Source of the DNA: Acinetobacter sp. SFB
Lineage (GTDB): Bacteria; Pseudomonadota; Gammaproteobacteria; Pseudomonadales; Moraxellaceae
Direction of reading: 5' to 3'
DNA length: 64,000 nucleotides
Assembly (NCBI RefSeq): GCF_001647545.1
Contig: NZ_LSZH01000012.1
Coordinates: 186,001 to 250,000, forward strand
Shown: positions 57,657 through 61,822 of the stretch, piece after piece
How the letters are laid out: each line of letters opens with the position of its first letter
How positions within the stretch are numbered: position 1 is the first letter of the stretch
Made by a program: the position numbers and the translations under genes
The notes under the pieces: generated by a model
Database searches by the model: none
What the model was told of the DNA's origin: nothing
The model's input: the letters and a program-made list of their open reading frames with translations, nothing else

Positions 57657-58418
57657 ATGAAAAAACAAAGAATTATAAATATTTTTAAGGCTGCTTTCTT
57701 TATGTCCAGTGCTGCAGTCGTTGCTCATGCAGACCCGATTGTAATTGAAGGTGCTGTACCCAATGAAACGAGTAAACAAGCGATTTTAAATAAAATGCAT
57801 GCTGTTTATGGTTCTGATCAAGTGATTGATAAAATTAAAGTTCGTGCTGTATCTGCACCAAATGGTTGGAGTGATTCAGTTACTGAAGTCATTACACCAG
57901 ATTTAAAAAAAGTTAAACAAGGAAAATTAACTGTACATGGTACACAGATGGATTTGGCTGGGAAAATGTCAAATCAGAATGATATTCAGCCAATTTCATT
58001 AAATTTTCATAGCTTAGTTCAAGCACCGTATCGTTTGAATACGCGATTAACAGTAAATCACGCAGAACAGAAAATTATTGATCAGGCTTTAAAAAATCGA
58101 ATTATTGAGTTTGAATCTGGAAGTGCTGTATTAGCAGCTTCAGGGAGACAAATTTTAGATGAGATGGCGATCGTCTTAAATAAGGTTGGTGGCAAAAAAG
58201 TAAAGATTATTGGCCATACAGATAATTCAGGCGATTCAGGGAAAAATTTAACTTTGAGCCAACAACGTGCGACAGCAGTTAAGAATTACTTAATGGGAAA
58301 AAATATTCCTACAAATAGTTTAAGTGTTGAAGGTTTAGGTTCAACTAAACCAGTTGCTGATAATACAACAGTTGAAGGTCGTAAGAAAAACCGTCGAATT
58401 GAATTCGAAGTTTTATAA
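57657..58418 (+). CDS. tagN: TagN, exported OmpA-like peptidoglycan-binding protein of T6SS
   Basis: This 253-residue protein has a signal peptide (about 25 residues, ending VVAHA) and a C-terminal OmpA-like domain. The latter holds IEFESGSAVLAASGRQILDE, KIIGHTDNSGDSGKNLTLSQ and then QRATAVKNYL, plus GRKKNRRIEF with the peptidoglycan-binding Asp and Arg. It anchors the apparatus to the cell wall. It ends the plus block, and a terminator follows at 58430. Confidence 0.9.
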   Translation: MKKQRIINIFKAAFFMSSAAVVAHADPIVIEGAVPNETSKQAILNKMHAVYGSDQVIDKIKVRAVSAPNGWSDSVTEVITPDLKKVKQGKLTVHGTQMDLAGKMSNQNDIQPISLNFHSLVQAPYRLNTRLTVNHAEQKIIDQALKNRIIEFESGSAVLAASGRQILDEMAIVLNKVGGKKVKIIGHTDNSGDSGKNLTLSQQRATAVKNYLMGKNIPTNSLSVEGLGSTKPVADNTTVEGRKKNRRIEFEVL

Positions 58419-58429
58419 GTTATCTATAA

Positions 58430-58455
58430 AGAGTCACATAATTTTATGTGACTCT
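58430..58455 (+). terminator. Terminator of the T6SS plus block
   Basis: AGAGTCACATA pairs with TATGTGACTCT around ATTT. The next base begins the dif site. Confidence 0.8.
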
Positions 58456-58483
58456 ATTTCGTATAATGTATATTATGTTAAAT
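58456..58483 (+). other. dif: Chromosome dimer resolution site dif
   Basis: The XerC arm is ATTTCGTATAA (58456-58466), the centre TGTATA, and the XerD arm TTATGTTAAAT (58473-58483). The last 21 of 28 bases equal those of E. coli dif. XerC and XerD act here with FtsK to resolve chromosome dimers, so this is probably the terminus of replication. A second dif-like site lies inverted 75 bases away. Confidence 0.9.
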
Positions 58484-58558
58484 AGAATATCCAAGACTGT
58501 GGTCTATACACAACCTTAGTTGTAGCCACAGCGCCAGATCGTGAATCTGGAGTAAGCT
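58484..58558. other. Structured 75-base interval between inverted dif-like sites
   Basis: The interval has two hairpins. The first pairs CTGTGG with CCACAG, with inner ACAAC and GTTGT. The second pairs CCAGAT with ATCTGG around CGTGA. Together with the flanking inverted sites this single strand can fold into a cross-like structure. No ORF is present. Confidence 0.7.
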
Positions 58559-58586
58559 AAGTAACATAATATACGTTATGCCGAAA
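58559..58586 (-). other. Second dif-like Xer site, inverted
   Basis: On the minus strand the site reads TTTCGGCATAA, centre CGTATA, then TTATGTTACTT. The XerD arm matches dif at 9 of 11 bases and the XerC arm end (GGCATAA) is close to the E. coli GCATAA. It points opposite to the dif at 58456. The pair recalls attP1 and attP2 of CTX-type phages and the inverted pdif pairs of Acinetobacter plasmids. Confidence 0.75.
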
Positions 58587-58640
58587 TCTAAGCGTCTTAC
58601 ATTTTAAAATCTATTATTCTCAAAATATGAGCTTTATGTT

Positions 58641-58790
58641 TTATAAAAACTCTCTTTTTAATTCTTGATGACGCTCTTTAGTGACATAAATATTTTTATG
58701 TGGGTATAAATGCCCCGATTCTATTCTTACTCGTTTAGGTTTATTGATTCTACAAACAATAGAATCAATTAAAGAAAATAAAATATTTGA
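58641..58790 (-). pseudogene. Fragment of an unrecognised ORF next to the Xer sites
   Basis: An open frame without a start codon runs between stops and reads NKPKRVRIESGHLYPHKNIY and then VTKERHQELKREFL before its stop. The sequence looks like real protein with basic and aromatic residues. It may be the end of a gene from an inserted element. I do not recognise it. Confidence 0.3.
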
Positions 58791-58842
58791 TCAAATTTGA
58801 AGTTATAAAATACAGACACGATGTTCGAGGGAAAGATGAATA

Positions 58843-59047
58843 ATGGGAATTGCTATTTTCTGTCTGATTTTTGGCTTTATTGCTGGGTACTTTCAAAGAT
58901 ACTCAACATAAAAAAGAAGTGCCTAAAGTAAAGACAAAGCCAAATAGAAATGTATATTTAAGCTACAAAGAGAGACAGCGGGCAAAAATATGTTATTTAA
59001 ATGATGTAGATAGAATCAGAGAGTTAAATTTACTTTCCCATAATTAG
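58843..59047 (+). pseudogene. Small ORF with an apparent frameshift
   Basis: One frame starts MGIAIFCLIFGFIAGYFQ (a membrane helix) and stops after 22 codons. The adjacent frame continues with TQHKKEVPKVKTKPNRNVYL and ends ...RIRELNLLSHN. Joined, they would give a membrane-anchored protein of about 70 residues that ends 9 bases before the next gene. A start at 58836 in a third frame has a better ribosome site but gives an odd product. Confidence 0.35.
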
Positions 59048-59056
59048 AGTAAGTTT

Positions 59057-59290
59057 ATGCGCTTACTACAACACCAATTTTTAGAACATAAATTAATAGT
59101 CAAAGATAGACGTTTTTATATAGCAGATCAGGACAACTACCCCATTGCTATATTTGAATACAGAGATGGCACAAAAGAATTAAAACTCAAAGATAAAGAA
59201 GATGGATTACCTTTATTTCTATACAAAGCAATTCTTTCAAGTGATGCAATTGCAGAAGATAAAATGGCACTGAACTCGAATCTAGCTTAA
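59057..59290 (+). CDS. Small hypothetical protein (77 aa)
   Basis: This 77-residue soluble protein has KDRRFYIADQDNYPIAIFEY and LKLKDKEDGLPLFLYKAILS. It follows 9 bases after the broken ORF before it and probably belonged to the same unit. It lies 570 bases from dif. I do not recognise the family. Confidence 0.5.
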   Translation: MRLLQHQFLEHKLIVKDRRFYIADQDNYPIAIFEYRDGTKELKLKDKEDGLPLFLYKAILSSDAIAEDKMALNSNLA

Positions 59291-59481
59291 TTAATGATAC
59301 GTCCTAATCATTAAATTTAATTCATACTTGATTCAGCTAAATCAATACTCTGTCTTTATTCAAGGCCTTATGCTGATTCGAATCAAAGATTTCAAAGTTT
59401 AACAATACAATATTAAAAATTCATATATTTCATTAACTTAATCAACATATATTTTTCATGTGGATATTTATACGAAAAAAA

Positions 59482-59617: not shown

Positions 59618-61822
59618 CTATTTTGATAAAGCTGCAAACTTAGCACGTGCTGCATGAAGTTTTTTATAGCTCTCGATCAGACGTAAATGCCGCTCTAAGC
59701 CTTCCAGTTTCATACTGGTTTCAGTTAAGCCATAGAAGCGGATACTTCCATCCATAGAACCTATCACGGCATCCATACGTTCATCACCAAACATACGGCG
59801 GAAATTGGCTTCATAATCATCCAAATCCATGTCGTCATCCAGTTCAACTTCAAGTACAACATTTAGGCATTGGTAGAATAAACCGCGTTCAACCGTATTG
59901 GTGTTGTATTGCAGGAATTGTTCAACTAAATCTTTCGCTTCTTCAAATTGCTGTAAAGCAATATAAATGAGTAGCTTAAGTTCCAGAATAGTAAGCTGCC
60001 CCCAAACGGTATTATCATCAAATTCAATCCCGATTAAGGTCACGATATCGGTGTAATCATCAGATTCACATTCTTCTAGACGCTCAACCAAGGCTTCAAG
60101 CTGCTCATCATCCAAACGGTGGATATTCAAAATATCTTCGCGGAACTGAAGTGCTTTATTGGTATTGTCCCAAATTAAATCTTCAACCAGATAGATTTCA
60201 GAATAACCTGGTACCAAAATACGGCAAGCCGTCGCACCTAAATGCTGATACACCGCCATATACACTTCTTTGCCCATTTGTTCGAGAATACCGAACATGG
60301 TTGCAGCTTCTTCTACATTGGCATTTTCGCCCTCGGACGTGAAATCCCACTCCACAAACTCATAAGCAGATTTTGAGCTGAAGAAACGCCAAGACACCAG
60401 ACCGCTTGAATCGATAAAATGTTCTACGAAGTTGTTTGGTTCAGTCACTGCATTGCTGCTAAATGTTGGTTTTGGTAAATCGTTTAGACCTTCAAAACTA
60501 CGACCTTGCAATAGTTCAGTTAAACTACGCTCTAAAGCCACTTCCAGCTTTGGATGCGCGCCGAAAGAGGCAAATACGCCACCAGTACGTGGATTCATTA
60601 AGGTCACGCACATCACCGGGAATTGACCGCCCAATGAAGCATCTTTCACCAGAACCGGAAAACCTTGTTCTTCCAGTCCTTTGATACCTGCCACAATGCC
60701 TGGATATTTCGCCAAGACCTCTTCTGGCACATCTGGAAGCGCAATCTCACCTTCTAGAATTTCACGTTTCACCGCACGTTCAAAAATTTCAGACAAACAC
60801 TGTACTTGTGCTTCGGCCAAAGTATTACCGGCACTCATTCCGTTACTTAAATACAAGTTTTCAATCAGGTTTGATGGAAAATAAACCACTTTATCATCAG
60901 ACTGACGCACGAATGGCAATGAACAGATTCCGCGCTCAATATTGCCTGAGTTGGTGTCATACAAATGCGTACCGAGAAGCTCATCTTCAGGGTTGTATAT
61001 CTCTAAAGTATATTCATCCAGAATTTCTTTTGGTAACTCACCTTCTGAACCCGGCTTAAACCATTTTTCATCTGGGTAATGTACAAATTCAGCATTGGCA
61101 ATATCTTCACCCCAAAACTGATCGTTGTAGAAGAAGTTACAGTTGAGACGTTCAATGAACTCCCCTAAGGCCGAGGCCAACGCACTTTCTTTGGTTGAAC
61201 CTTTACCGTTGGTAAAACACATAGGTGATTGTGCATCACGAACATGTAATGACCAGACATTAGGCACAATATTACGCCATGACGCAATTTCAATCTTCAT
61301 ACCGAGGCCAGCCAAAATACCTGACATATTGGCAATGGTTTCTTCTAGAGGGAGATCTTTACCCGGAATAAAGGTACTGCTGTCTGAAGCTAGACTCGGC
61401 ATCAATAAAGCTTGTGCATCGGCATCAATGCTTTCCACTTGCTCAATGATAAATTCAGGACCGGTTTGGATCACTTTTTTAACCGTACAACGGTCGATTG
61501 AACGCAAAATACCTTGGCGGTCTTTATCAGAAATGTCAGATGGCAATTCCACCTGAATTTTAAAAATCTGTTTGTAACGGTTTTCTGGATCTACAATGTT
61601 GTTCTGCGACAAACGAATATTATCAGTCGGGATATCACGTGCTGCACAATATACTTTTACAAAGTAGGCTGCACACAAAGCAGAAGATGCAAGAAAATAA
61701 TCGAATGGCCCTGGTGCTGAACCGTCACCTTTATAACGAATCGGTTGGTCGGCAATTACCGAAAAATCATCGAACTTGGCTTCTTGTCGAAGGTTGTCGA
61801 GATAATTAACCTTGATTTCCAT
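59618..61822 (-). CDS. OsmC-YcaO fusion protein
   Basis: This 734-residue protein has an N-terminal OsmC-like domain (about 1-130; APGPFDYFLASSALCAAYFV near 37-56 and CTVKKVIQTGPEFIIEQ near 112). A full YcaO domain follows (TNGKGSTKESALASALGEFI and ERLNCNF near 215, then NGMSAGNTLAEAQVQCLSEI and FERAVKRE near 330). The C-terminal region is acidic and helical. YcaO domains use ATP to activate amide backbones; in E. coli YcaO with this extension has been linked to ribosomal protein S12 methylthiolation. No partner or precursor peptide gene is adjacent. Confidence 0.92.
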   Translation of the reverse strand: MEIKVNYLDNLRQEAKFDDFSVIADQPIRYKGDGSAPGPFDYFLASSALCAAYFVKVYCAARDIPTDNIRLSQNNIVDPENRYKQIFKIQVELPSDISDKDRQGILRSIDRCTVKKVIQTGPEFIIEQVESIDADAQALLMPSLASDSSTFIPGKDLPLEETIANMSGILAGLGMKIEIASWRNIVPNVWSLHVRDAQSPMCFTNGKGSTKESALASALGEFIERLNCNFFYNDQFWGEDIANAEFVHYPDEKWFKPGSEGELPKEILDEYTLEIYNPEDELLGTHLYDTNSGNIERGICSLPFVRQSDDKVVYFPSNLIENLYLSNGMSAGNTLAEAQVQCLSEIFERAVKREILEGEIALPDVPEEVLAKYPGIVAGIKGLEEQGFPVLVKDASLGGQFPVMCVTLMNPRTGGVFASFGAHPKLEVALERSLTELLQGRSFEGLNDLPKPTFSSNAVTEPNNFVEHFIDSSGLVSWRFFSSKSAYEFVEWDFTSEGENANVEEAATMFGILEQMGKEVYMAVYQHLGATACRILVPGYSEIYLVEDLIWDNTNKALQFREDILNIHRLDDEQLEALVERLEECESDDYTDIVTLIGIEFDDNTVWGQLTILELKLLIYIALQQFEEAKDLVEQFLQYNTNTVERGLFYQCLNVVLEVELDDDMDLDDYEANFRRMFGDERMDAVIGSMDGSIRFYGLTETSMKLEGLERHLRLIESYKKLHAARAKFAALSK

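Follow-up and report, generated by a model that had tools for sequence, protein, structure and literature searches.

A probable phage relic at dif and a family of putative folded attachment sites in Acinetobacter

The sequence block that follows the chromosomal dif in the window, as the whole stretch of 64,000 nucleotides analysed here is called, is probably a relic: the left junction of an integrated and since worn filamentous phage or satellite, with its folded single-strand attachment site. The block belongs to a family of elements of about 150 nt, arranged as attP1 - hairpin A - hairpin B - inverted attP2, in which the hairpins are conserved by compensatory change across the aligned sequences. 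On the evidence of sequence comparison, the element serves filamentous phages of Acinetobacter (Rep, Zot), and also satellites, as their attachment site. The end products found at the insertion borders are most simply read as those of a XerD-mediated integration of ssDNA, the mirror image of that of CTXphi.

The block at dif and its predicted fold

A sequence-only reading of the region had described a dif and, 75 bases further on, an inverted dif-like site, the XerD arms facing inward. Both sites were confirmed by scanning the window with four dif/pdif/attP2 patterns, allowing up to 6 mismatches, and no others were returned; the 28-base attP2 pattern used in this site scan derives from the window site at 58559-58586 itself. 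The features of the block are the following.

58456-58483, + strand: chromosomal dif, ATTTCGTATAATGTATATTATGTTAAAT, 0 mismatches to the canonical pattern; a plain dif in genome G126
58484-58489, + strand: 5' half of the outer stem, AGAATA; varies with some compensation in relatives
58497-58531, + strand: hairpin A, CTGTGG (58497-58502) with CCACAG (58526-58531); compensatory changes in relatives
58534-58550, + strand: hairpin B, CCAGAT (58534-58539) with ATCTGG (58545-58550); shortened
58553-58558, + strand: 3' half of the outer stem, TAAGCT
58559-58586, - strand: attP2, the inverted dif-like site, TTTCGGCATAACGTATATTATGTTACTT, central region CGTATA

The XerC arm and the central region TGTATA of the dif at the window come from the host, and its XerD arm is common to the phage site. 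When folded as ssDNA, the block reaches -25.2 kcal/mol against a mean of -8.92 (sd 2.29) for shuffled sequences, corresponding to a z of -7.11, with 0 of 200 shuffles equally good. The predicted DNA fold includes the 13-bp inner pairing of the two sites that had been noticed from the letters. The two hairpins proposed between the sites both form as well, hairpin A with the inner stem ACAAC/GTTGT; hairpin B, however, is in the window a truncated remnant of what is in relatives a 15-bp stem. The 131-base block, as originally delimited, is real but too short a description, since the feature extends beyond 58586 and ends, in worn form, only near 59306.

Distribution of the element

In 169 of 175 genomes of the genus the block is matched over the length of dif or more, the hairpins being present in some of them only. 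A covariance model built from relatives matches 80 of the 175 genomes (78 of the 169 good ones); the model is palindromic and the per-genome match counts, which include reverse-strand matches, were not used. Matches were obtained in 38 of 249 sampled genomes of the family, all within 1 of 16 genera, and in 1 of 143 sampled genomes of the class, namely the window's own. An exact search for the attP2 pattern across 84,980 species genomes returned 32 stretches, all from Acinetobacter. Within the collections scanned, where strict filters were applied to the large genome sets and family and class were represented by samples, the element was found only in Acinetobacter. The elements were gathered from seeds related to the window; divergent forms are under-sampled, and related sequences do not count as independent events.

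The nearest relatives, as judged by the YcaO protein (95-97% identity), are G127, G160, G161 and G126. They match the block over 28-35 bases only, and none of the four is among the 80 genomes matched by the covariance model. A plain dif, followed by similar ordinary sequence and then by the VF530 gene, is found in G126, G127 and G043, although in G043 the element is present further on; in G160 other DNA lies behind dif. The comparison across Acinetobacter genomes that had been suggested thus finds the element missing in some strains, including the four nearest relatives. With 80 of 175 genomes carrying it, the block is not the fixed part of the terminus that its presence in all related genomes would have indicated.

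Conservation of the fold

From a set of 78 distinct full-length elements, 68 were aligned without reference to structure (alignment A1); the ten left out were the window copy, which bears a deletion, five near-duplicates and four divergent sequences. RNAalifold, run on the 68 elements, predicts hairpins A and B, for a total of 22 pairs, 18 of which show compensatory changes. In a named structure of 39 pairs, obtained by adding the outer stem and the XerD arms, 22 pairs change on both sides, and double-changed cells number 197, compared with a mean of 49.9 after shuffling and with 9-30 in slid controls. The XerD-arm pairs, none of which shows a double change and three of which are often unpaired, say little: the covariation signal comes from the hairpins and partly from the outer stem.

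Wobble pairs are unevenly distributed between the strands. On the strand read here, 35 A.C and 6 G.T cells occur in hairpins A and B, or 26 and 6, respectively, when 40 distinct stems are considered. An A.C on this strand corresponds to a G.T on the other, and the fold is therefore tolerant as if formed on the phage coding strand. The asymmetry is suggestive of that strand, its weight being reduced by the relatedness of the sequences; the orientation of the phage genes is the other ground for assigning the fold to it. In filamentous phages the virion (+) strand is taken as the coding strand.

Phages and satellites carrying the element

A circular record of 6,400 bp from A. johnsonii XY27, filed as a plasmid, contains Rep, capsid, TspB-like and Zot genes and a single place matching the element. 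For the attP of this circular phage a forked hairpin is predicted (-38.1 kcal/mol, z -8.34), with unpaired bases where the central region adjoins the XerD arm. In 5 plasmid records, and in none of the phage records, 80% of the block is covered by a single place. L054 (NZ_CP070869.1), deposited as plasmid plas3, is apparently the circular genome of a filamentous phage, and a similar match was given by NZ_CP070868.1 (6,689 bases) in the plasmid search.

In IMG/VR, attP2 is carried by 31 stretches, from 30 contigs. When the element is read from dif to attP2, Rep, Zot or satellite genes are located on the opposite strand in 29 of the 31, the exceptions being L132 and L134; Rep and Zot on the same strand as the element occur on the dif side only (L116, L124, L128, L129, L134, L138). 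Zot and Rep_trans were matched in L036 with values of 7.6e-17 and 7.2e-22, and Zot/Rep also appear in the annotation of L054. Zot and a rolling-circle Rep occur together with the element in relatives and in most IMG/VR stretches, not in the window's genome. The circular forms and filamentous-phage genes that the sequence-only reading had proposed to look for therefore exist, as a free circular 6.4-kb phage with one element and as Rep/Zot phages and satellites.

Copies of the element recur in arrays, often of one orientation and often starting at dif. Satellites of 2,004 bp are repeated in tandem in G083, a 6.6-kb phage (Rep, coat, TspB-like, DUF2523, Zot) lies beside a satellite in G029, and a satellite is found at dif in A. 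baylyi DSM 14961. The element is preserved in full in satellites that lack Rep and Zot, and at least one array at dif carries AbiTii and TIR-WD40 genes.

Some further observations concern the content and the surroundings of the arrays. The satellites of 2.0-2.5 kb in L037, L036, L106 and L042 have two small genes in common (phrog_20873 and a gene of 145 aa) and differ in cargo, which in L037, for example, includes a YfbU-domain gene. Genes for AbiTii (two copies), TIR-WD40 and trypsin-like/TPR-S proteins, with a weak match to an alpha/beta-hydrolase, form a defence-like cargo in the DNA between elements at L049:1303-9235. In A. gerneri (L036:14018-14602), a toxin-antitoxin-like pair with Gp49 and HI1420-type antidote domains lies on the opposite side of dif, where dif-like sites flank it. 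In L184 (A. baylyi), L116 and L138, phages with a different, RepJ-like type of Rep end on the XerC-arm side of dif, and folded-attP elements occupy the XerD-arm side. VF530, which is often the right neighbour of dif, was considered as cassette cargo and rejected.

Junctions and central regions

The left ends of the 78 elements were sorted by arm and central region. A host-like XerC arm is present in 40, all with a 6-bp central region, and the usual phage arm, [AT]GTCGCATAA, in 26, all with a central region of 7-8 bp. Two have atypical arms with a 7-bp central region and are not typable, while the remaining 10, of the D1b kind, have their junction inside the XerD arm and fall outside the simple model. 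A host XerC arm followed by a phage central region is seen at none of the 66 left ends that could be clearly typed, and the exact XerD arm TTATGTTAAAT is kept at the left end in 68 of the 78 elements. Two plasmid targets keep their own central regions, GCTCTA and TATAGA, and in G001, G002 and G103 insertions end on the right with an attP1 lacking hairpins. According to left-end types, plasmid targets and right-end attP1 combined, the crossover lies where the central region meets the XerD arm, or to the right of this border.

The D1b half-site (..GGTGAACATAAGTTAAAT) stands before 10 of the 78 elements, at loci including L069, L085, L044, L039 and L040, and is also seen without hairpins about 200-280 bp to the right of VF530 in some genomes; it may be either a second target or an old right end.

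In attP2, of which one copy in 78 was left unparsed, the central region reads ATA beside the XerD arm, as in dif, in 74 of 77 cases, and beside the XerC arm has C where dif has T, again in 74 of 77. The commonest attP1 strand has AAT beside the XerD arm and mismatches dif there, so that good pairing would be expected at just one of the two joints. The three central bases on the XerC side agree between attP1 and attP2 of the same element in 25 of 28 cases, and between neighbouring cassettes in 19 of the 20 that are readable among 29 pairs, many of them related. As a weaker line, this agreement supports the pairing of the two sites with each other. Most arrays are uniform, and pairing between neighbours is hardly told apart from pairing within an element; two cases in L036 favour the former, as the model wants, and one in L049 opposes it.

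The window copy and its flanks

The following features surround the block in the window.

57657-58418, + strand: OmpA-domain gene, left chromosomal flank of dif (Pfam OmpA 3.5e-23)
58843-59290, + strand: broken phage accessory gene, phrog_23897 (PHROG E 1.8e-35; reading frames compared)
about 59277-59306, + strand: worn sequence resembling attP1, taken on this resemblance alone as the right end of the insertion
59618-61822, - strand: YcaO-family gene, right chromosomal flank (Pfam YcaO 2.4e-64); to the right of dif in G126 too

The OmpA-domain gene, assigned to a T6SS in the sequence-only reading, is identified here by its OmpA domain. A homologue of this gene is located to the left of dif also in G126, G108 and G160, and nucleotide homology to G126 starts again at 59423 and continues through YcaO. 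The phrog_23897 gene, which in the phage contigs L113 and L122 is a continuous ORF running into attP1, is split in the window by a frameshift and an in-frame stop, its readable part of 77 aa spanning 59057-59290. The same gene lies behind elements in G002, in G103, where the element is partial, and in the 7-kb tandem phages of G079. A search for Zot in the window's genome gave no match; XerD scored above its family cut-off there, and another Xer-like gene fell short of the cut-off.

The phage origin of the window copy, with hairpin B shortened and the right end worn, rests on homology. No phage core is left: the junction, the broken accessory gene and the worn right end are what remains, and dif is still intact, presumably since the host needs it. 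Between the relic and the active landing site that had both been envisaged, the truncated hairpin B, the broken gene, the worn attP1 and the missing Zot speak for the relic, and against a free attP or a working module.

The window's genome is assembled in 18 contigs. VF530, single-copy in this genome, is located on contig C16, as is the right half of the former dif flank, and the sequence before this half resembles the end of phage M02. The terminus has thus been rearranged, because the VF530 half of the old dif locus is on another contig, beside a different phage end. A second dif-like site, with the central region TATAGA, was observed at G000:C16:1-1413 (L035) together with VF530 and the right flank that dif originally had; by eye, the sequence preceding this site looks like the end of the filamentous phage M02.

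Proposed integration and alternative explanations

In the proposed integration, attP2 and attP1 on the virion (+) strand would pair into a dif-like duplex closing the forked hairpin, and XerC and XerD would bind both this folded duplex and the chromosomal dif. XerD would then catalyse the exchange of one strand, acting on the attP1 strand where the central region meets the XerD arm, and replication would complete the integration. The outcome would be a dif regenerated on the left, with the phage XerC arm and central region left at the right end. A fourth class of Xer-exploiting elements, in which a folded single-stranded attP is integrated by XerD-catalysed exchange, a combination missing from the published scheme, is accordingly proposed with slight preference; in the same reading, Acinetobacter phages and presumably helper-dependent satellites would build integron-like cassette arrays at dif. 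The CTX-type folded attP used through XerC/XerD, as first suggested, is in this respect borne out by the circular phage, by Rep/Zot, by covariation and by the absence in relatives, and has to be modified as to polarity, which looks like that of XerD.

The elements share with an ordinary CTXphi-type attP two inverted dif-like sites, a forked hairpin of about 150 nt, an overlong central region in one site, a filamentous phage and arrays, and neither the two atypical left arms nor the ten D1b ends can be assigned to a type. It is nonetheless unlikely that they represent such an attP, with XerC-catalysed exchange, in merely a new host genus: the phage central region would be expected beside the host XerC arm, as seen in 0 of the 66 clearly typed left ends, and attP2 mismatches dif on the XerC side and matches it on the XerD side (74 of 77 in each case), the reverse of the table given for CTX in PMC3089051. 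A double-stranded replicative form recombining at attP1, as in VGJ or TLC, would reduce the hairpins to, say, an origin or a packaging signal. Such a signal would be kept whole by satellites without Rep or Zot, as the element is, and a packaging hairpin on the (+) strand would fit the wobble polarity; this explanation is rather improbable, since attP1 with the usual phage arm has a central region of 7-8 bp in 26 of 26 cases, its homology to dif beside the XerD arm is mostly poor, and attP2 forms the base of the fold, its XerC-side bases tracking those of attP1 (25 of 28 within the element, 19 of 20 between neighbours).

A gene-less inverted pdif module, which the block had been said to resemble, or a fixed structure of the terminus would account for inverted Xer sites beside dif, and pdif modules are common in Acinetobacter plasmids, a hairpin pathway being among the proposals made for them in PMC7399989. 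Both are very improbable, given that the element is present in 80 of 175 genomes and in none of the four nearest relatives, and that the interval covaries and the unit goes with phages and satellites. Equally remote is a structured RNA or terminator of the phage in place of a DNA site. The wobbles point to the coding strand, whose polarity transcripts of the phage would have as well; the base of the fold, however, is made of XerC/XerD sites, to one of which the junctions map, and no Rfam match at gathering score was found in 58300-58800, where three matches were obtained, all far below that score.

XerD-catalysed integration of a folded attP suggests a chromosomal entry route for a large, little-studied group of Acinetobacter filamentous phages and satellites, and would account for the variable gene arrays adjoining dif. 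As a natural mirror image of CTXphi, it lets one ask what sets a XerC or a XerD start of recombination. A paper on A. baumannii filamentous phages considers that some groups probably use host machinery, by comparison with CTXphi and Ypf at dif (PMC11209303); the word attP is absent from its main text. A literature search, with subscription journals and preprints mostly outside its reach, returned neither a folded attP in Acinetobacter phages nor a ssDNA/XerD class.

Comparison with known systems

In the scheme outlined in PMC4246890, CTX is integrated as ssDNA by XerC, VGJ as dsDNA by XerC and TLC as dsDNA by XerD. The closest likeness is to CTXphi attP(+), Ypf and CUS-1. It comprises an inverted pair of dif-like sites, separated by about 90 nt in CTX and by 75 in the window, a forked hairpin of about 150 nt, a filamentous phage that has no integrase of its own, arrays at dif and the regeneration of one dif, and extends to the overlong central region of attP1, of 7-8 bp here (26 of 26, the window attP1 being worn) and of 12 bp in CTX (PMC4246890). 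The differences concern polarity: the junction lies at the border between central region and XerD arm here and on the XerC side in CTX; identity with dif is found in the XerD arm here and in the XerC arm in CTX; and homology is found beside XerD here and beside XerC in CTX, where the TGT of attP1 matches dif1 on the XerC side (PMC3089051). In addition, attP2 comes first on the coding strand in the Acinetobacter elements. The XerC-side strand exchange typical of CTXphi thus does not appear to apply to them.

TLCphi resembles the elements in the XerD-first exchange suggested here and in the presence of satellites, but uses one double-stranded site, whose XerD arm is degenerate (PMC4246890), as opposed to two inverted sites and a conserved fold. 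Phages of the VGJphi type, to which phage M02 may belong in Acinetobacter, are likewise filamentous and have a dif-like site; theirs is a single 29-bp attP without a fold, whereas the Acinetobacter elements have two sites and a fold. The match of M02 to the element model is confined to positions 3-39, and therefore no hairpins follow its dif-like site. The pdif modules of Acinetobacter plasmids share the inverted XerC/XerD sites, but flank genes, while the 75-bp interval holds hairpins only. Integron attC sites are similar in outline, as folded single-strand sites with arrays growing from one fixed site; in Acinetobacter the sites are of the XerC/XerD type, and the cassettes are phages and satellites.
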